DNA from: a virus
IMG/VR virus record: IMGVR_UViG_3300043827_000191
Location: 1-21,416 of that record
Length of the DNA: 21,416 nt
Reading direction: 5' to 3' (one strand)
Part shown: piece after piece, positions 1 through 10,045 of the stretch
Layout of the letters: each line of letters starts with the position of its first letter
Numbering within the stretch: position 1 is the stretch's first letter
Made by a program: the position numbers and the translations under genes
Notes under the pieces: model-generated
Told to the model about the DNA's origin: nothing
Database searches by the model: none
The model's input: only the letters and a program-made list of their open reading frames with translations

Positions 1-1466
1 AAATAACCATATTGATTTGTTGTTGGTAGTGTATTATCCAACTTAAACCAATTTTCATTGTATGTAATCTTATGTTGGTATGTCGAAATTACTCTTTCGA
101 ATTGTTCAAAGTTATTCCATTCACAGAAATCTCCGTCGATAGTATCTCCAGACGTTAATAAATCGTTATAAACAAATGGTCCATTACCAAGTAGTGAATT
201 ATATTGACTTTGGTTTATCAAAGTGCTCGAGTTTGGGTTATTTTGATTCCACCATATTTGAGGGTTACCTTTATCTAAAAAAGTATTAAATTTCCATCCT
301 TGTTTTAGTTTTTGTGTCCACCCAAAATAACCTCTCCATACAGTTGTTATAAACAACTCACTAACGGGTCTTCTTTGATTGTCTCTTAAATTCGAAGTAT
401 TTACATCACAATTAAAAGATAATGTATAAGATCTTGCACCTTCTTTTATTGAGTTTCTTTTTCTTTGATTGGGGGTTAGTGATTTTACCTCACACTTTTG
501 TTTAACATTATAGACATTTTGTTCATATCCTGCATTTGTTAAAACAGCACAATTTGAGTCGGTAAGTATTTTGTGTTTTCTAACATAATACTCACTAATG
601 GTATCTGCAGAATTTGCAGGATTTATCACTCTTTTGAATGTTCCTTGATTTAAGGTTTGAAATGTGGTTCCTGTATATCCAACATTTTGAATGTTAAAGA
701 TATAATTTTCAGAACCAGACCCTCCGTCTCCCAAACTAGCAACTTGGAAAAAAGAGTTTCCGTTATAGTTTGTTGAAAGTAAAACAAATTCACCAACACT
801 AAGTCCATGAACAACGGGACACCTAAAACTAATAATTCTTGTTTGGATATTGGTTCCGACTTCAATAATATAAGGTAATCCGTCACCCGAAATCCAATTC
901 CATGAAAAATTTGTGTTGGGTTGAATCGCATACATTTGTTTTTTATAGTCATTTAAAAACGCATAACTTATGTAGTGAGACCAATTATATGTTGTGGCAC
1001 TAACTGACTTAAAGTTTAAATGGTTGTTGGGAGGTATAGTATACCCTTGAACGTCTCTATCAGTTCTAATAAAATCAAACTCAGAATATTGTGGAAAACC
1101 GTCCCAAGGAATATTTGAGTTAATCGGTAAAGGTGGAACTGACGGAACGTTTCCTGAAGGGTAATATGACGCAGCGTTCGAAACCGCATTTGTATAATAA
1201 AGGTTATCTCTAAAGGGGGGATATAGTGTTGATCCTGTCAACGCATTTTCAAACACGACCATAAATTTTGTGACCGGTCTAAATGTAAAAGAAAGTTGTC
1301 TTTCCTCGTCAAATACTGTCGCAAGATTTAAATCAACACTTCTGTCAAATTCGACTAATTCTTTTTGAGTCTGCACTAAAGGCAAACTCATTTGTTGGTC
1401 TTGCTTTGGGGCTCCCTTGAATCTTTGTGTTGATTCTATAATTCTTGTTGTTGGATCAACGGTCAT
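1..1466 (-). CDS. Large phage structural protein, C-terminus off the left edge
   Basis: Reading the minus strand from ATG at 1466-1464 gives an uninterrupted frame of about 488 codons to the window edge, so this is the N-terminal part of a larger protein. It starts MTVDPTTRIIES. The composition is rich in Asn, Ser, Thr and aromatic residues (for example PQIWWNQNN and YFGWTQKLKQGW), as is usual for beta-rich tail or baseplate proteins, but I recognise no domain. The start lies one base after the stop of the 1785-aa gene (TAA G ATG), which suggests co-transcription and translational coupling. By position, after gp25-like, gp6-like and a giant protein, it would fall where T4 has gp8 or later wedge and fibre genes. 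I see no sequence resemblance to T4 gp8, so the function is inferred from context only. Confidence 0.85.
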   Translation of the reverse strand, partial: MTVDPTTRIIESTQRFKGAPKQDQQMSLPLVQTQKELVEFDRSVDLNLATVFDEERQLSFTFRPVTKFMVVFENALTGSTLYPPFRDNLYYTNAVSNAASYYPSGNVPSVPPLPINSNIPWDGFPQYSEFDFIRTDRDVQGYTIPPNNHLNFKSVSATTYNWSHYISYAFLNDYKKQMYAIQPNTNFSWNWISGDGLPYIIEVGTNIQTRIISFRCPVVHGLSVGEFVLLSTNYNGNSFFQVASLGDGGSGSENYIFNIQNVGYTGTTFQTLNQGTFKRVINPANSADTISEYYVRKHKILTDSNCAVLTNAGYEQNVYNVKQKCEVKSLTPNQRKRNSIKEGARSYTLSFNCDVNTSNLRDNQRRPVSELFITTVWRGYFGWTQKLKQGWKFNTFLDKGNPQIWWNQNNPNSSTLINQSQYNSLLGNGPFVYNDLLTSGDTIDGDFCEWNNFEQFERVISTYQHKITYNENWFKLDNTLPTTNQYGY

Positions 1467-1467
1467 C

Positions 1468-4400
1468 TTATTCTTGTTCTGTTGCTACATATAGTTTATA
1501 GAATCTATTGATTGCTGTTTTTCCATTATTTAAACCGAAATAAAAGTGATATGGGGCGCCAACAACAACCACTGATGAAGTTGTTATAGAAGAGCTTGGC
1601 ACTCCTTGTAAAATATTTGCCAATGGAGTTATTGGTAATGGATCACCGTTGATGTCAAAACTCGCCAAGTAACCAAGTTTAGTTAAGTTTGTTTGGTATT
1701 TGCCAGGTGCGGTTGTAAAATCTAAATCTTGATATTTTTTTTGGTAGAATCCTGAGTTACTACTTGCGTTCGTAAACCAATTATTATCTTCAGACCCGAA
1801 TATATTTGGTGTTCCCACATTGTCTTGAGGAGTTGTAATTGCCCATCTATAGTGGGGGACCACTTGTGATTTTGGATATCCAAACGATTCTTCGATCAAT
1901 GGGTTGAAACTATAGGTTTCGATTCCTGGTGACATTATTTTTCTGTATCTTACTCCTTCGTTGTTCTCAGAAAAAAATAAACCCATGATTGGTCTTATTT
2001 TTCTTGGGGGAAGTGCATTTGGAATACCGTTTTGGTTATCACCAAAATAAATATAATTTGGTGCGGGAATGTTTTCTGTAATGAATGGTAAAACTTTCCA
2101 TTCAGAGTTTATAGACAACATCTGAGCCCAATCACCGTCAATTCTATCTCCGCCTCTGTTACTATTAAAAAATTGTATAATACCAACGCCTTCTCCACTA
2201 CTTTGTCCTATATTGATTGGTAACATTCTATTTCGTGTTCCTTCGTTAATAAGTCTTGATAGAAATCCTAATTGAATAATGTCGGAATTATCTTGGTATG
2301 ATGTTGATTTTATTTGGTCAGAATAATATGATCCGCTATTTCCTGACTGATTTGATGAACAACAAATTTCATTTATGAATGAATCTCTTGGTCCCAAATC
2401 GACAACTGTTGTTGGGAACTGAACTTGTTTGACGTTAAACCCAGGAAATAAATTTGTGTTCTGCAGAGGTATTGGTGCGTCTTTTCCAATAAAATCGGAT
2501 CCATCCCATGGCGATGATCTATAGTAAAAAACATTAGTTAATGAATTGAACATAATTACATCATCACAATATTTGTAATCTGGAGTTCCTGTTAAACTGA
2601 ATCTAGTTCTTTTATTGAAACTATACATATATAAAGTTCCGTTGATCCAATTGTTTTGAAATACTTGAGCAAAAACACCTCGACAAGCCGCAAAGTTCAT
2701 CATAAATCTAACTTTCCATTCCAAAAACAATCTTATGTCGTCTAAAATTTGTATGATATATGGTCGATTGATCAAACAATAACAACCATTGATCATTCTA
2801 TCTTGTGGCACATCACATTGTCCTGCAGGTAATACTCCAACATTATTTCCTGAACCACTATAACAAGCCAAAGGAACCATTCCTTCACATGTTAAAGTAG
2901 ATGTCAATCCTGAAATTACATCATCAGAGTCTTGCGATTCCCCCGAAGCCGGATCTCCACCAGCATAAATTGATGGTGCCGATACAATTCCGTTACTTGT
3001 GAAAATCGCAAAGTTGTTATTTTGATGAAGAGCATATCCTGTTCTATTTCCCGCACCATTTTCAATACCTGTTGAGGTCGGTAGTCGGTCACTTCTCATT
3101 ACAATTCTAGATGAGTCAGAAAAACTAATTGGTGATAAAGAAAATCTGTAATAGGCAGATGAATATGATGAACTTAAAACACCTCCAGCACTATTCGAAC
3201 CAAAGTTATTATTTGTGCTCTGTGATTTATAATATTCATTAATTTGACATGAATTATTACATGATCCACCACTATCTGTTTCTAAAGAATAAACAAATGA
3301 AGAGTTATCAGACCATCCCGCAAATGATCCACCACCAACATAATCGGACTGAGTTTTTGGTTGTGTATATGAACTTACTTGTAAAAACCCTGTTGGTAAA
3401 ATTAAAGAACCCGCATTTTGCCAATTCATAAAAGGTGCTGGAATATATGATGTAGATATGGCGTCGTCGGTGCTTAGATAATAATACGGTAAATTTGATG
3501 TAAACGCCGTATAATTAGATTGTGTTATGTTAAAACTATAAGATGGGAAATATAAATGAGTGTCGGTATTTGAAACTGAATTATGGCTTCTTGGTTTGTT
3601 TCCTGATGGGTATGCTTGTATTGGAACGTTTAAATAATAACTCCCTTCTATTTCTACATTACCATTTGTTGTGTATCCAAAAATTGATGATAAGTCGTAT
3701 CGTATAGTTTGTTTTGGTGTATGGGGATCAACACCTCTTGTAAAAATACAAACTTCGAAGGTTTCGTATCCGGGTAGTAATCTAACAACATCACTTATTG
3801 TCCAAGAACTAAATGTGTTTGCATAATTTACAACGTTACAACTTGGAACTGCGATTTGAACGTTGTGGAATAAATACGCCGAATTATACGATCCTGATGT
3901 CCCCAATGAACTATTTTCAAAATCTGAAACTGTCATACCTGTAATCAATTGGAAATATTCCATGTCGGTAGCAAACTTCAAATAGTCTTGCTCAACTAAG
4001 GCGTTTCCTGTTACGGGTAATTGTGAAACTTGGGGAACATCAATTATGATATTTGCCTGTGAGTTAGTTTGTCCGTTAGGGTCGGTTGGGTTTGCATAAT
4101 TTACAACAACATTTGTTTGACCAGTTATTGTTGTTCCTGTGACAGCATTGTTATTGAATTGATTTGAGGTTCCTCCAGTTAAATTTAATTGTCTATTTGT
4201 AGATCCTGAATCAGAATAATTTGGGTCTTGGAACGTGCACAAATTTCCTACACCAATAGAACTTACGGCCCCTGCATTCATAAGAACAACAACTACTTGA
4301 TCGTTGAATGTGGCACTCGCTTGATTTGTATTGATTGAAGGATTGACCCATGTTGATATTCTATTTTTACCCGTAAAATACTTATCTCTAGTATTAAATT

Positions 4401-6825
4401 CATTTAGTTTTTTTGGGAAAGTGTCGCTTAAAGGATACGCAAAATATCTTCTGTCAGCTGCGGCTCCTTTTTTCTCTGCCGCCCACAAGAAAGGTTGTGG
4501 TGCGTGTAATAAAAAAAACTCATTATTAAAAAGTCTATTTGGGTTATTAGAAGACAACACGTCATATCCTGATATTGTTCTTTTTAAGTCTAGACTAGCC
4601 TGAACAACAACATCTAAAGATATGTCGTTATTATTTAATAATGTTTCAAAAGATTCATAATTTCCACCATAACCACCACCACAATCGTATGGCTCACTCC
4701 CATCTGAAAGTTTTAATAAATTGGGGTGTGTGATGTTATAAAGGTTTGCACTATTAAGAGGGGCAATTAAAGTATTCACCGTAGTCAAAGTTACGGTATA
4801 TGGTAAATCACCCGCACCGTTATTATAGTCGGTAGCCGCTTGTATTTCATTTCCCGTATCTTGGTCTTCATTAATGCCACAATCACATTCACAACTTGTG
4901 CAATCGGGATAAGCGATCATTGGTAGTCCAATTCTTGGGAATCCTGGTATTTCAGGTATGTTGATGTTAAAGATTCTTCTTATCGCATTTACTATGGTTC
5001 TAATCAACTGCCATATTGCGGCCACGATGTGAATTACAAATATCAAAGACATTATTGGCCATGCCAAAATGTTTAATAATAAATTCACAACAAAGAATAT
5101 AAAATCAAAATTTCTTATTATGTCATTTACAGGAAAAGTGCTCACCGTTGATTTACAACTTCTGTTGTCGATTTCTTTAATACCCAAATGTCTTGCTCTA
5201 CCTATCCCTTTTTTATACCTGTCTAAAAACATTGCTGTCGTATAAACCTTATTGAATCCGAATTCATAGAAAGTATCTTCGCAATTAATCGCGTCTTGGA
5301 TATTCACATAATCGTCCCAATCAGTGCTGAATGCGTAAGATTTATATACGTCAAACAACTGAGATGGTATTTGAGTGAAAGTAATATTTTGAGCTTGAGC
5401 TGGATTTATTGGGGTTGCAATAATTTGTATGGTGTCTCCAATATTCAGTGTAATTGAGTTTAGTGATCCAATATAAACAGAACCATTTATTAGAATTTGA
5501 AACGATTCTACGTTATTTGTCTGTGGATTTGATAAACCTTCTTGTGTTAAAAAGACTACGGTGCTACCTGTTGTAACACCAGGTGGTAACTGATAATTAT
5601 AACTTCCAATTAAAGTTGGGTCGAATGGGTCGTTAGAAGAATTAGTCCATCCGTATTCTTTAACATTTGGAACAAGAAAGTCGGCACGCATAAAACTATT
5701 TTGTAGTCCTTGTTCGTTTTGCCATCTAAACTTGAATCGGTATTTACCTTTTGTTGGAACACCGACCTTTGGGTCATTCGAAATTGCCAACTCACCAAAT
5801 TCATTTGTAAAAACGTAATCCAAATTCATTGGGACATTGATCAAATATGTTCCGTCTCCATCAATAACTTTACCTCCATCTTCAATCTGATATCTTTCTA
5901 AAATAGGTAATCCATTTACGTCTGAAAAAATTGTTTGTCTAATTGCTTGTATCTCACCAGGTCCTGCAACTAGCTCACATAAATTACCTGTATTATTTTT
6001 AGGTTTACAAGACACCTTTAAAGCGTCATCGTCAGTTGTTGAAATAATAGAACCCATAAATATTGCTGTTGGTTCTATTGTTAAATTAGCTTGTTTTGTT
6101 AAATCAAAATCTACCCTTGTGATTCCAACTTGACATAAATCATTATCACCCCAAAAAGGTCTAACATAAACATCAAAAACCAAATTTTTGATTTGTGGTA
6201 GTTCTTGTAGATTTGTTGACGATTTGAATCTTGCGCCATTTACCTGAGTTTCAGTAGCCAAACCTTGTCTAATCAAATCTTGTGGTGATAATGAAAAACA
6301 ACCAATATCGGATAAATCTACATCCATAACGATTGTTTGTGTTCCAACAGGAACTCCAAAAATCATAAAGTCACCACTTTCATTTGTTGTAACCGTAAAT
6401 CTATAATATTTATCAAATACTTCGATATACGATCCATCCATTAAAACATCACCTTTATTTGGGAATGATCCTGTAGAAACGTGTCCGTTGTATGACGGCA
6501 ATTTAGGAAGTAGATTATACCTATAACCATCCTCATTAGTATCGGTGATTGTTTTATATGGGTATAATTCTGTAATTACAGGGTCTAACTCATCTGCAGG
6601 TTCTAAAGGAATGAATACGGATACTTTGGCGTTTGGTAAACCGAACCCGTTATTTACAAATACTCTACCTGTAACAACACCATAATCCGCACAAAATCGT
6701 GTATAAACGTCGTTTGCTAAAATTTTTAGAGAAAGTATTTCTAGTTGCTCCCAATCTTGTTCTAAATTGACATTTATATACTTATCAACCCCAATTTGGG
6801 TTCTTATTCTATATGATTTGGGCAT
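1468..6825 (-). CDS. Giant baseplate/tail protein with regulatory-like beta domains and a membrane-type segment
   Basis: This 1785-aa protein lies in the baseplate operon. Residues about 45-110 (VTGRVFVNNGFGLPNAKVSV, then a DTNEDGYRYN turn) and about 140-175 (FTVTTNESGDFMIFGVPVGT) look like carboxypeptidase-regulatory-like beta-sandwich repeats, a fold common in surface and adhesive proteins. Residues about 568-625 are strongly hydrophobic and could form one or two membrane helices. They are followed by an IPEIPGFPRIGLP stretch and a cysteine cluster CTSCECDCG near residue 642. The remainder is Asn/Ser/Gly-rich with no recognised motif. It starts 76 bases after the gp6-like gene; the ATG at 6825-6823 has no Shine-Dalgarno, and a TATTTAT motif lies 16 bases upstream. 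Its place after gp6 corresponds to T4 gp7, a large wedge protein, but homology is unproven. Host-binding adhesin is the main alternative. Confidence 0.9.
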   Translation of the reverse strand: MPKSYRIRTQIGVDKYINVNLEQDWEQLEILSLKILANDVYTRFCADYGVVTGRVFVNNGFGLPNAKVSVFIPLEPADELDPVITELYPYKTITDTNEDGYRYNLLPKLPSYNGHVSTGSFPNKGDVLMDGSYIEVFDKYYRFTVTTNESGDFMIFGVPVGTQTIVMDVDLSDIGCFSLSPQDLIRQGLATETQVNGARFKSSTNLQELPQIKNLVFDVYVRPFWGDNDLCQVGITRVDFDLTKQANLTIEPTAIFMGSIISTTDDDALKVSCKPKNNTGNLCELVAGPGEIQAIRQTIFSDVNGLPILERYQIEDGGKVIDGDGTYLINVPMNLDYVFTNEFGELAISNDPKVGVPTKGKYRFKFRWQNEQGLQNSFMRADFLVPNVKEYGWTNSSNDPFDPTLIGSYNYQLPPGVTTGSTVVFLTQEGLSNPQTNNVESFQILINGSVYIGSLNSITLNIGDTIQIIATPINPAQAQNITFTQIPSQLFDVYKSYAFSTDWDDYVNIQDAINCEDTFYEFGFNKVYTTAMFLDRYKKGIGRARHLGIKEIDNRSCKSTVSTFPVNDIIRNFDFIFFVVNLLLNILAWPIMSLIFVIHIVAAIWQLIRTIVNAIRRIFNINIPEIPGFPRIGLPMIAYPDCTSCECDCGINEDQDTGNEIQAATDYNNGAGDLPYTVTLTTVNTLIAPLNSANLYNITHPNLLKLSDGSEPYDCGGGYGGNYESFETLLNNNDISLDVVVQASLDLKRTISGYDVLSSNNPNRLFNNEFFLLHAPQPFLWAAEKKGAAADRRYFAYPLSDTFPKKLNEFNTRDKYFTGKNRISTWVNPSINTNQASATFNDQVVVVLMNAGAVSSIGVGNLCTFQDPNYSDSGSTNRQLNLTGGTSNQFNNNAVTGTTITGQTNVVVNYANPTDPNGQTNSQANIIIDVPQVSQLPVTGNALVEQDYLKFATDMEYFQLITGMTVSDFENSSLGTSGSYNSAYLFHNVQIAVPSCNVVNYANTFSSWTISDVVRLLPGYETFEVCIFTRGVDPHTPKQTIRYDLSSIFGYTTNGNVEIEGSYYLNVPIQAYPSGNKPRSHNSVSNTDTHLYFPSYSFNITQSNYTAFTSNLPYYYLSTDDAISTSYIPAPFMNWQNAGSLILPTGFLQVSSYTQPKTQSDYVGGGSFAGWSDNSSFVYSLETDSGGSCNNSCQINEYYKSQSTNNNFGSNSAGGVLSSSYSSAYYRFSLSPISFSDSSRIVMRSDRLPTSTGIENGAGNRTGYALHQNNNFAIFTSNGIVSAPSIYAGGDPASGESQDSDDVISGLTSTLTCEGMVPLACYSGSGNNVGVLPAGQCDVPQDRMINGCYCLINRPYIIQILDDIRLFLEWKVRFMMNFAACRGVFAQVFQNNWINGTLYMYSFNKRTRFSLTGTPDYKYCDDVIMFNSLTNVFYYRSSPWDGSDFIGKDAPIPLQNTNLFPGFNVKQVQFPTTVVDLGPRDSFINEICCSSNQSGNSGSYYSDQIKSTSYQDNSDIIQLGFLSRLINEGTRNRMLPINIGQSSGEGVGIIQFFNSNRGGDRIDGDWAQMLSINSEWKVLPFITENIPAPNYIYFGDNQNGIPNALPPRKIRPIMGLFFSENNEGVRYRKIMSPGIETYSFNPLIEESFGYPKSQVVPHYRWAITTPQDNVGTPNIFGSEDNNWFTNASSNSGFYQKKYQDLDFTTAPGKYQTNLTKLGYLASFDINGDPLPITPLANILQGVPSSSITTSSVVVVGAPYHFYFGLNNGKTAINRFYKLYVATEQE

Positions 6826-6901: not shown

Positions 6902-8743
6902 CTAAGAGAAATTAACCGATGTTAGATTAAGAACTCTAACATTTATATCCTTATTTGGATATCTGATCTGATATATTTGTGTTGGTGTTGCGAAAATAGT
7001 ATCGGTGGTCGGTCTAATTTGTCTTGTTAGAGGATCTGAATATGGCATAGATGTTTGTGATGAAGAATATTGTCCTCCAACTTGATTAAAGAATTGAATA
7101 TCAGATATGCTTACAATCCCATTTTCAGCTTGGATTAGTCTTCTTAATTCTGAAATATTAACGTTTTGTCCAAGTTCTCTAACAAGAGGATTAAAGAAGT
7201 CCCCAATTATTTGAATTGTTTTTGCAACTATCGCCCCTTGGTTTTGACTATTGTCCAATACAACATCGACAATAACAGAAAGATCTATTGTTTCTGCCGC
7301 TTCAACAGAAATATAATCATTTATCATTCTGTAGTTTGATAAGTAATTGGCTACGTTTTGTTTTAATGTGTTTGACACAACATTTGTTAAAGTTCCGTTT
7401 GCGTCATAGGACAACATTTTAATTCGTATTTTATTATTTTCTTCCGTAATTGCAACTTTTGCCGGTGCTCCAAATTGTGCCGGCATTGTTCTTAGAATTG
7501 AGTTGTAGTCGTTTACGGTTACCGCTCTGTTTTGAGCAGCAAAATTAAACGAAACCATGTTTCTAACGTCTTCGGTTGTTGGTGGATTCGCTCCTCCAAT
7601 AGCGGCCGTAACATTATTACATTGTAAGCTGTTGATTACACTTCTATTTGCCGTCTCTGATGGTCCATTTACCGCAAATGAAACTGTTCCAATTTGGTTG
7701 ATTGTGTTAATCCCAATATTACTTGCCAAACCACCACCAATTCTATACTGAATGAATAATGTCGTATTAGGGGTAAGTGCCGCCCCCATTGCGTAATTAT
7801 TTGTATATCTACTTAAATCAAATCCTTTACCATCACGAGCAAATTCTCTTAATTGTTCTTCGGCGGAAATATTACCACCACCAAATGTCAATTTACAATA
7901 ACTTTCAGGTGTGAATTCAGAAATGAATTTATTTGATGTTGTTATGTATCTTCCCACTTTGATTCCCGGTTGGTCTGAAACCTTAGTTGGGTCTTCAATG
8001 AATATTCTGTCTTGAACCAAGGCATCTACTTCATACCATCTTTCAGGACCAATTGTTAAAAAGTCTTGTGGGTTTGGAATTGTCGAGTATTGAGTTCCAG
8101 GTTTCAAAAGAACGCTTGTGATTCCTAACACATTTTTTTCAGGCAAAAACAACTCAAAATATGGTTTGACATCATTTGGGGTTATTGTTCTTTTGAATAC
8201 TTTTGTAATTCCGTTGACTACTACTTCTCTTTTGACTATTGTGTAATTTAATAATTTTCCACTAGAATCGAAGTTTGGTATTTTAACTCTATTTGGAGAC
8301 CCTTCAGCGTTTATTGGTGAAGCAAAATCAATATCATATACAGTTTCAAAAGGTTGTCCTCCACCATTAACTTGCGAACCTCTTCTCAAAACCCCACAAT
8401 ATCTTAGATCTTCTCTATCCCCAAAAGCAGGAACGGTGATTGAAAAATCAACCAAAGCGACAGAAGGTCTTTGACCAGGAACTTTTAATCCGTAAGTTCT
8501 TGCAATGTTATATATTGAGTTTTTTTGTTGCGCAAATTGTAATACGGTTTCTTGTATGCTCCTATCTATTTGATAATTAAGGTTGTCAGTAACTGCGGCA
8601 TTTAAATCCATCATTACTGAAAAAATTCCGGCATCGTTAAAATTTTGAACTAAATCGGGGTAATAAGTTCTTGTAAAATTGATAAGTTCAGTTCTAACCC
8701 CCTGAAAGTCTCTTACGGTATAGGATATTTTTTTTTCTGCCAT
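6902..8743 (-). CDS. gp6: Baseplate wedge protein, T4 gp6-like (baseplate J family)
   Basis: The 613-aa length is close to T4 gp6 (660 aa). The N-terminus (YTVRDFQGVRTELINFTRTYYPD, then NDAGIFSVMMDLNAAVTDNLNYQIDR) matches the pattern I know from gp6-like wedge proteins of marine T4-like phages, including the helical region with QETVLQFAQQKNSIYNIART. The C-terminal half has the baseplate-J-like alternation of NRAVTVNDYNSILRTMPAQFGAPAKV, then a beta-rich region and ELRRLIQAENGIVSISDIQF. gp6 dimers join neighbouring wedges into the inner baseplate ring around the hub. The gene starts 6 bases after the gp25-like stop, so the two are likely coupled, and gp25 and gp6 interact in known baseplates. 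The start (ATGGCAGAAAAAAAA) has no Shine-Dalgarno. Identification is by pattern recognition, without an alignment. Confidence 0.85.
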   Translation of the reverse strand: MAEKKISYTVRDFQGVRTELINFTRTYYPDLVQNFNDAGIFSVMMDLNAAVTDNLNYQIDRSIQETVLQFAQQKNSIYNIARTYGLKVPGQRPSVALVDFSITVPAFGDREDLRYCGVLRRGSQVNGGGQPFETVYDIDFASPINAEGSPNRVKIPNFDSSGKLLNYTIVKREVVVNGITKVFKRTITPNDVKPYFELFLPEKNVLGITSVLLKPGTQYSTIPNPQDFLTIGPERWYEVDALVQDRIFIEDPTKVSDQPGIKVGRYITTSNKFISEFTPESYCKLTFGGGNISAEEQLREFARDGKGFDLSRYTNNYAMGAALTPNTTLFIQYRIGGGLASNIGINTINQIGTVSFAVNGPSETANRSVINSLQCNNVTAAIGGANPPTTEDVRNMVSFNFAAQNRAVTVNDYNSILRTMPAQFGAPAKVAITEENNKIRIKMLSYDANGTLTNVVSNTLKQNVANYLSNYRMINDYISVEAAETIDLSVIVDVVLDNSQNQGAIVAKTIQIIGDFFNPLVRELGQNVNISELRRLIQAENGIVSISDIQFFNQVGGQYSSSQTSMPYSDPLTRQIRPTTDTIFATPTQIYQIRYPNKDINVRVLNLTSVNFS

Positions 8744-8749
8744 ATAACT

Positions 8750-9208
8750 TTAAATATTGATTATGACAAAATCTTGTGACTCAAAGGCGGAGTCTGTAAT
8801 TCTGTAATCTATTTTTATTTTTGCGGTATGTTCCAAATTTGCTATGTTGGTCACCCTAAATTCTCTTTCACCATATTGGTTGATGGTTTCTCCTTTATTT
8901 TCCAAACCAGCTGACGCTGGTTCAACCGTAATGTTGGTAACTTGTAAGTTTGGCATATACGTTCTTATCGAGTCTTGGATTTCGGATTCTATATCTGAAA
9001 AAGTTGGTCCATCTAAGGGTTCAAATATATACTCATATAATCTTGATCCAAAATCGGGTAAAAAATATCTACTACCCTTTCTTGTTAAAAGTAAATGAAC
9101 TAAGTTTGCTCTAATTTCCCCCTCCGTAGAGTTTGTGACATCTAAATATCTTCCTGTAAAAGAATCTACGAAAGGGAAAGAAATACCATAAGTTATACCA
9201 TTTGCCAT
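8750..9208 (-). CDS. gp25: Baseplate wedge subunit, GPW/gp25 family
   Basis: This 152-aa protein is slightly longer than T4 gp25 (132 aa). Residues about 37-65 carry the family signature: NLVHLLLTRKGSRYFLPDFG followed by SRLYEYIFEPLD, matching the T-x-kGer-x3-PdfG-x2-L-x3-lfep pattern of GPW/gp25 proteins. In T4 this small protein links the sheath to the wedge and contacts gp6. It appears to lead the baseplate operon: a strong terminator sits just upstream (9252-9272), and a TATTTAT motif lies 7 bases before the ATG. An out-of-frame ATG occurs 5 bases upstream (ATGATATGG). I chose ATG at 9208-9206 because it gives MANGITYGISFPF, a typical gp25 N-terminus. Confidence 0.9.
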   Translation of the reverse strand: MANGITYGISFPFVDSFTGRYLDVTNSTEGEIRANLVHLLLTRKGSRYFLPDFGSRLYEYIFEPLDGPTFSDIESEIQDSIRTYMPNLQVTNITVEPASAGLENKGETINQYGEREFRVTNIANLEHTAKIKIDYRITDSAFESQDFVIINI

Positions 9209-9277: not shown

Positions 9278-10045
9278 TTAGTATCTTCTTTTATATTGTC
9301 TTCGTCTGTAGTTTTCATCCATAGTCCTTTTGTATCCTTTCGGTAAATCGTCGCCTTTCATTTTTTCATGATATATTTTTTCACCTGATGCAGTTCTTGT
9401 AAAAATATCCCCATCTTTTCCGACAGATAAACTTCTATTTTTAATTAAATCTATTTCGGGTTCATCTTCATATGAATTGTCTGGTCTCATTTTTCTTAAA
9501 GGTCCATTTTGTTTATTTCGATTGTTAAAATCAGATGGTTCGGTTGGTGGGTCTTCTTTAAGTAATTTAGCAATACCCATTAATAATGCCGTTACCCCCC
9601 AACTTACAGCAAGACCAGCAGCGAAAGGAGCTCCAACAGTTCCTGCTAAAATTCCTCCAATTCCTATTGCTGCCGGTACACCACCCCAAGCCGAAATATT
9701 AGCGGCTCCTATACCATGTAATATTTCTGACGCCTTATTTCTTAGGCTTTCGTTTTCGCCAATTTCACCACCAATTTTATCTCCGATTTTCTTTTCTATT
9801 GCAGTGTGTACTTCTTTCGCCGAAGAATATTCATCTATTCCTAAATTATCTAAAACACGTTTTATTTTTTCTATATCTCGATCAGTAAAATTTGAGTAAA
9901 TATCTTCAATTCGATCTTGAACTTTTGGTTTTTCTAAAACATCATCCACTTCGGCGGCAATTTTGTTTTGAGTTTCTTCTTCTTTAATAATTCGTTTTAC
10001 AATACGACTCAAGTCATTTTCAGTCAATCTTATAATTTTTTTCAT
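9278..10045 (-). CDS. Probable virion protein with a cleavable-looking leader and hydrophobic Gly/Ala segment
   Basis: This 255-aa protein has three visible parts. The N-terminus, MKKIIRLTENDLSRIVKRII followed by KEEE, is a basic amphipathic helix ending in I-K-E at residues 20-22. Similar 'RLTExDL' openings are, as I recall, common on proteins of Bacteroidota phages. Residues about 30-110 are charged and probably helical. Residues about 122-162 form a long Gly/Ala/Ile-rich hydrophobic stretch (GIGGILAGTVGAPFAAGLAV) that could insert in or disrupt a membrane. The C-terminus is strongly basic (NYRRRQYKRRY). I know no named family. I infer a capsid-internal or ejected protein from the leader (I-x-E fits the T4 prohead protease rule) and from the hydrophobic core. 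It lies between the reductase and baseplate genes, with a terminator on each side. Confidence 0.8.
   Translation of the reverse strand: MKKIIRLTENDLSRIVKRIIKEEETQNKIAAEVDDVLEKPKVQDRIEDIYSNFTDRDIEKIKRVLDNLGIDEYSSAKEVHTAIEKKIGDKIGGEIGENESLRNKASEILHGIGAANISAWGGVPAAIGIGGILAGTVGAPFAAGLAVSWGVTALLMGIAKLLKEDPPTEPSDFNNRNKQNGPLRKMRPDNSYEDEPEIDLIKNRSLSVGKDGDIFTRTASGEKIYHEKMKGDDLPKGYKRTMDENYRRRQYKRRY

Follow-up and report, generated by a model that had tools for sequence, protein, structure and literature searches.

A conserved membrane-type module within a large baseplate-operon protein of uncultured T4-like contractile phages

Introduction

Hydrophobic, membrane-type segments have been described in a number of tail proteins. 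In the short-tailed phage phi29, the L-loops of the knob protein gp9 exit on genome release and form a barrel of hydrophobic helices (PMC6542822). A run of 46 hydrophobic residues in the T5 tape measure, pb2*, has been proposed to form two outer-membrane helices (PMC10038345). Transmembrane regions of the diffocin, TP901-1, and Pam3 tape measures have been proposed as a conduit, while the tape measures of T4 and T5 possess little or no transmembrane region (PMC10996793). The tail-fibre-like protein Cis13 anchors the thylakoid CIS through a predicted transmembrane helix, and the particles come free when this helix is deleted (PMC8894136). For T4, one paper describes the passage of DNA through the envelope after spike puncture as essentially unknown (PMC11054660).

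Here, we analyzed a virus record of 21.4 kb (hereafter the window, meaning the whole stretch) encoding a 1785-aa protein, W, with an internal hydrophobic module. W resembles phi29 gp9 in having a hydrophobic helical insert inside a tail protein, although the helices of W are predicted. The gp9 insert is hidden before genome release and is a proposed membrane channel afterwards, a behavior that we can only infer for W. The two proteins also differ in setting, as gp9 forms the tip of the tube in a short-tailed phage that infects a Gram-positive host, whereas the W gene lies in the gp25-gp6 block of a phage with a contractile tail, and no sequence relation between them was detected in profile searches of all PDB sequences. 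The hydrophobic run of T5 pb2* is similar in length to that of W, but pb2* is a tape measure inside a siphophage tube, whereas W is beta-rich and encoded after gp6. Like W, the diffocin, TP901-1, and Pam3 tape measures are predicted to contain several membrane helices, but the protein and its place differ. The thylakoid system (Cis12/Cis13) is a contractile device whose baseplate region is membrane-anchored by a predicted helix; a membrane helix is also predicted in W, a candidate protein of the baseplate region. However, that helix is C-terminal in a small tail-fibre-like trimer anchored before firing inside the producing cell, whereas the module of W is internal and phage-borne.

Results

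W is encoded in a T4-like baseplate operon

The W gene occupies positions 1468-6825 of the window on the minus strand, as deduced from the ORF list and translation. Homologs of gp6 and gp25 adjoin it on the same strand, as expected of a T4-like baseplate operon: directly upstream is a gp6-like baseplate wedge protein (6902-8743; PHROG 219, E 2.8e-19), followed further upstream by a gp25-like baseplate wedge protein (8750-9208; Pfam PF04965, E 2.7e-13). The next gene in the operon (3-1466, minus strand) exits the end of the window, encodes a protein of ~600 aa in relatives, and matched no known family in PHROG and Pfam searches. No Pfam or PHROG family scored above cut-off for W itself. Judged by sequence, other genes in the window serve replication, and T4-like as well as other phages encode many relatives of the gp41-like helicase.

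This organization is strictly kept in the relatives with enough flanking sequence. The gp6 gene is upstream of W in 203/203, gp25 is upstream in 186/186, and the same family-less gene is downstream in 209/209; these counts are not independent, because the stretches retrieved for some loci overlap on one contig. The sheath family PF04984 was found in all five large records checked (in one of them above the curated cut-off), and one of the five matched a PHROG tail sheath model with an E value of 1.9e-54. These are therefore contractile-tailed phages, and the baseplate-operon setting assigned to W in the original prediction is borne out. It should be noted that the sheath gene of this group codes for ~1110-1120 aa (L209, 68-3415, from the record of L091) and that its match to the PHROG sheath model is confined to the C-terminal part. 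The T4 sheath protein gp18, with 659 aa, is far shorter.

We also considered that W might be a non-virion protein, either a membrane-bound assembly factor or a host-modifying protein, that lies in the operon by chance. The lack of a family assignment for W would fit such a role. Its strictly conserved place between gp6 and the downstream gene, kept in more than 200 loci, does not, nor do the size and the beta domains of W, which are typical of structural proteins. We regard this explanation as very improbable.

In gene position, directly after gp6, W corresponds to the T4 wedge protein gp7, for which we know of no membrane-type segment. W gave no PHROG, Pfam, or PDB-sequence match to gp7 or to any other solved baseplate protein; the fold comparison covered residues 1-756 of one relative, and a missing match is compatible with a relation. 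Among named phages, those closest in gp6 are Flavobacterium phage immuto, Microcystis phage Mel-JY01, and an uncultured 484-kb phage (LR756508). The large proteins encoded after gp6 in these three phages were rejected as W relatives, as they are related to one another and unrelated to W, and they have no membrane-type segment. The relation of gp6 to that of a Flavobacterium phage, together with a weak SprB-repeat match in a nearby gene, leads us to guess that the host belongs to the Bacteroidota.

Two further hydrophobic ORFs of the window were noted. A 255-aa protein encoded near the baseplate genes (9278-10045, minus strand) has a second hydrophobic, hairpin-like stretch at residues ~123-162. 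Its N-terminus carries a tag (consensus MKKIIRLTESDLTRIVKRVIKE) that is nearly identical in otherwise unrelated proteins, namely those encoded at 4995-5525 of locus L111, at 4436-4930 and 8579-8881 of locus L138, and by some ten ORFs in the 296-kb record from which L138 comes. The tag pattern gave 15 matches, about ten of them clear, whereas base-shuffled sequence gave none. The tag resembles a localization or capsid-targeting-like signal, an idea comparable to the capsid targeting sequence of T4, and the tagged 255-aa protein is possibly a packaged and ejected membrane protein. The second ORF, of 100 aa (650-952, minus strand), contains a strongly hydrophobic stretch, overlaps a 488-aa gene in another frame, and is probably a chance frame.

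W contains a long hydrophobic segment between conserved collars

Positions 4950-5125 of the window (minus strand) encode residues 567-626 of W, where a nearly uninterrupted hydrophobic run had been proposed at residues 568-625. That span proved slightly too long: the hydrophobic part proper comprises residues 569-615 (19-residue Kyte-Doolittle windows of at least 1.6 in the region), while residues 616-625 are amphipathic. The membrane-type character of the segment was upheld by its hydropathy, with a 19-residue maximum of 2.45 at residues 586-604, by a run of 34 residues (575-608) without D, E, K, or R, and by a predicted insertion energy of -2.2 kcal/mol for residues 586-611. The latter value was obtained with a re-implemented position-dependent insertion scale; its L-in-A test series crosses zero between three and four leucines, as published. 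Across W, this scale detected no separate stretch below +2.0 outside the segment. When W was shuffled at constant composition, the 19-aa maximum was reached in 136/5000 shuffles and the 41-aa maximum (2.01) in only 4/5000; within W alone, length rather than peak value is the unusual feature.

On the basis of hydropathy, insertion energy, helix model, and conservation, we delimited the membrane-type helix at 4969-5103 (minus strand; W 575-619), with Pro590 mid-way. Residue His599 (codon at 5029-5031, minus strand) is the sole polar residue inside the hydrophobic helix that is kept by every member of the family. The helix lies between two collars. The N-terminal one (5122-5253, minus strand; W 525-568) is defined by columns invariant in 89 diverse sequences and reads NKVYT..DRYK.G..R..H.GIKEI....C.......P.ND. 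The C-terminal one, FPRIGLPMIAYPDCTSCECDC (4879-4941, minus strand; W 629-649), holds the CxxCxC motif. The cysteine cluster and the PRIGLP stretch that had been noted after the segment were located at W 642-649 and 630-635, respectively.

The module is conserved throughout the W family

Several hundred relatives were retrieved from IMG/VR, with identities down to ~31%. The family is large, with at least 596 loci in IMG/VR among the relatives of one distant member, and its contigs reach up to 304 kb. When W, an N-terminal consensus, and two distant relatives served as tblastn queries against INPHARED phages, no W relative was obtained, and no confirmed relative was found in bacterial genomes. 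A Foldseek search of the viral structure library gave one true relative, A0A8S5LA66 of the metagenome-assembled Myoviridae sp. ctPuP5, with 44% identity over 390 columns (E 4.9e-41).

In all 248 full-length members, the signature P-x-N-[DE] ... [LF]-P-[MLI]-x-x-Y-x-[DE]-C-x-x-C-x-C encloses a hydrophobic module, as the original prediction required of relatives, and this rules out a chance hydrophobic stretch in one protein. These members carry 161 distinct versions of the module, of 80-169 residues, and hydrophobicity is retained despite this wide variation in length. The best insertion energy of the module has a median of -2.4 kcal/mol (range -4.15 to +0.49), while the best stretch in the rest of the protein is never below +1.25 kcal/mol. 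Relatives lacking hydrophobicity at the segment were sought down to ~31% identity, and none was found. W itself represents a short form, barely long enough for two membrane passes; the majority of relatives are of a long form, in which about three membrane helices are predicted.

An alignment of 89 diverse sequences showed that 17 consecutive positions (W 589-605) are free of charge throughout and that His599 is invariant (89/89); a His is present in the matching part of all 161 distinct modules. Conserved Pro, Asn, and Trp residues also occur in the module. In the same 89 sequences, H546 and C557 before the module and P635, Y639, C642, C645, and C647 after it are invariant. The suggestion that the flanks hold the insert in place is fitted by the invariant cysteines on both sides (C557; C642, C645, and C647), and the Cys and His residues that are invariant around the insert could tie its two ends to each other through disulphides or a metal site.

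These polar residues bear on another explanation, that the module is a permanent structural core in which the hydrophobic faces of several W copies bundle on or near the tail axis and never meet lipid. His599 and the conserved Pro, Asn, and Trp residues would suit specific helix packing, perhaps with metal binding on a symmetry axis, and the resting-state phi29 tail contains hydrophobic helix bundles (PMC6542822). Such a core accounts less well for the 34-residue charge-free run, for the three predicted membrane helices of most long forms, and for a module length that varies widely while hydrophobicity is kept. Moreover, the monomer models described below give long helices and no globular helical core. 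We consider a permanent core rather unlikely, although it and an assembly-stage tether (see Discussion) are the main alternatives.

The W relatives in two large records, of 153 kb (L091) and 296 kb (L138), were compared with the other proteins of the same phages. No other ORF of at least 250 aa in the sheath, hub, and baseplate blocks of these possibly incomplete records has a membrane-type segment; ORFs cut by stretch borders were left unscored, and the W relative of the 153-kb record, itself cut at such a border, was read whole separately. In the 296-kb record, the W relative has the lowest insertion energy among the 125 ORFs of at least 250 aa. The largest virion-block ORFs (1705 and 1593 aa; 1697 and 2233 aa), among which the tape measure may be, score +2.3 or worse and so differ from T5 pb2* in having no such hydrophobic run.

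The module is predicted to form long helices next to beta domains

An AlphaFold monomer of W 1-900, built from 59 fairly close sequences, was poor overall (mean pLDDT 55.2), but it shows residues 575-619 as one continuous helix of 45 residues (pLDDT ~76) between disordered flanks. A good model was obtained for residues 1-756 of the long-form relative L134 with the 89 diverse sequences (mean pLDDT 77.6, pTM 0.63). It is beta-rich up to about residue 540 and then forms a 63-residue helix (584-646) followed by a 32-residue helix (659-690), with pLDDT mostly of 80-90. Structure prediction had been suggested as a check on the segment, and in both models it yields long hydrophobic helices; the core of a soluble helical domain is absent from both, which are monomers only. 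The straight helix of the short-form model does not by itself show a hairpin, and a monomer is silent on packing in the baseplate.

Two beta domains precede the module. The first, Ig-like or carboxypeptidase-regulatory-like (6082-6690, minus strand; W 46-248), has a weak Pfam match below cut-off (PF13620, E 0.0044), and the homologous region of L134 matches the regulatory domains of carboxypeptidases N and D (Z 9.8 and 9.6; rmsd 2.0-2.7 over ~80 residues). The second is a beta-sandwich (5365-5613, minus strand; W 405-487; pLDDT ~87 in W and 80-95 in L134) that is at best weakly jelly-roll- or CBM-like, as its Z scores of 6.0-6.6 against jelly-roll domains are under the tool's reliable level. 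Foldseek searches of L134 1-756 against the PDB gave nothing convincing (best E 2e-3, generic beta domains), and profile searches of both halves of W against all PDB sequences gave no match at E <= 1. A match of the helical hairpin to VIP3B (Z 7.9) was set aside, being under the level at which long helices carry meaning. W was also rejected as a tape measure, a long and mostly helical tube filler, as its N-terminal 540 residues are beta-rich and its gene follows gp6.

The two halves of W have different histories

In a tree of residues 1-560, the short form is scattered among long-form lineages, and well-supported branches force at least three changes between forms. In a tree of the part after the module, all short forms fall in one group with 100/100 support. 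From this conflict, it follows that the version of the module goes with the C-terminal half and that N-terminal halves have been exchanged between lineages. For W 1-560 versus 670-1785 (5146-6825 and 1471-4818 of the window), the conflict suggests that the N-terminal half has recombined repeatedly close to the border of the module.

Discussion

We propose, with a probability of roughly 55%, that W is a baseplate virion protein of a T4-like contractile phage and that it carries a concealed module that anchors to or breaches the host membrane at infection. It had been anticipated that a membrane segment would be unexpected in a tail protein. Such segments are in fact known in tape measures, in phi29 gp9, and in the fibre-like protein of the thylakoid system; the surprise is the location here, as an insert within a large wedge-block protein of a T4-like contractile phage.

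The proposed sequence of events, in which we infer the presence of W in the virion, the concealment and release of its module, its copy number, its target membrane, and the roles of its His and Cys residues, is the following. W would sit probably at the level of the wedges, its module flanked by a beta-rich N-terminal half and by the C-terminal half. The module would form a long hydrophobic helix, returning as a hairpin in most relatives, and the conserved collars (C557; C642/C645/C647) would hold its base. In the unfired virion, symmetry-related W copies would conceal their helices, either packed against one another or enclosed in the baseplate, with His599 possibly keeping the helices in register. 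The change of baseplate shape at contraction would then free the helices to enter a membrane of the host, most likely the outer one, which faces the baseplate, where they would fix the baseplate and make or seal a passage for the tube.

Several points count against membrane insertion. A single pass would place the halves of the 1785-aa protein on opposite sides of the membrane, and the helix has an invariant His and several Asn and Pro residues, which may be just as compatible with a core of packed protein-protein contacts. To our knowledge, contractile phages that target Gram-negative hosts, such as T4, manage without such a segment.

A membrane-type segment in W could also serve during assembly, tying W and the assembling baseplate to the host inner membrane before being folded away or shielded in the finished particle. 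Membrane-anchored baseplates are known, for example through Cis13 of the thylakoid CIS (PMC8894136). Release would nevertheless require the baseplate to leave the membrane, which an irreversible anchor of several helices would hinder, and we judge an assembly tether to be unlikely.

Returning to insertion at infection, we tentatively extend the proposal to the clade as a whole, as a possibility that we hold with low confidence. These uncultured, mostly aquatic phages may have transferred membrane penetration to a baseplate protein, away from the tape measure or spike. A ring of W copies, three or six in number, might on firing insert two to four helices per copy and grip or open the membrane around the descending tube, with a ring of the invariant His residues as a latch or gate.

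Our analysis suggests that the tail of an uncultured group of contractile phages plugs into the host membrane on firing, which is undescribed for cultured phages of this type. It also indicates that a membrane device can be a modular part, as its long and short versions go with the C-terminal and not the N-terminal half of the protein. For a very large and abundant group of phages, the conserved baseplate module offers a specific candidate, open to mutation, for anchoring or channel formation.
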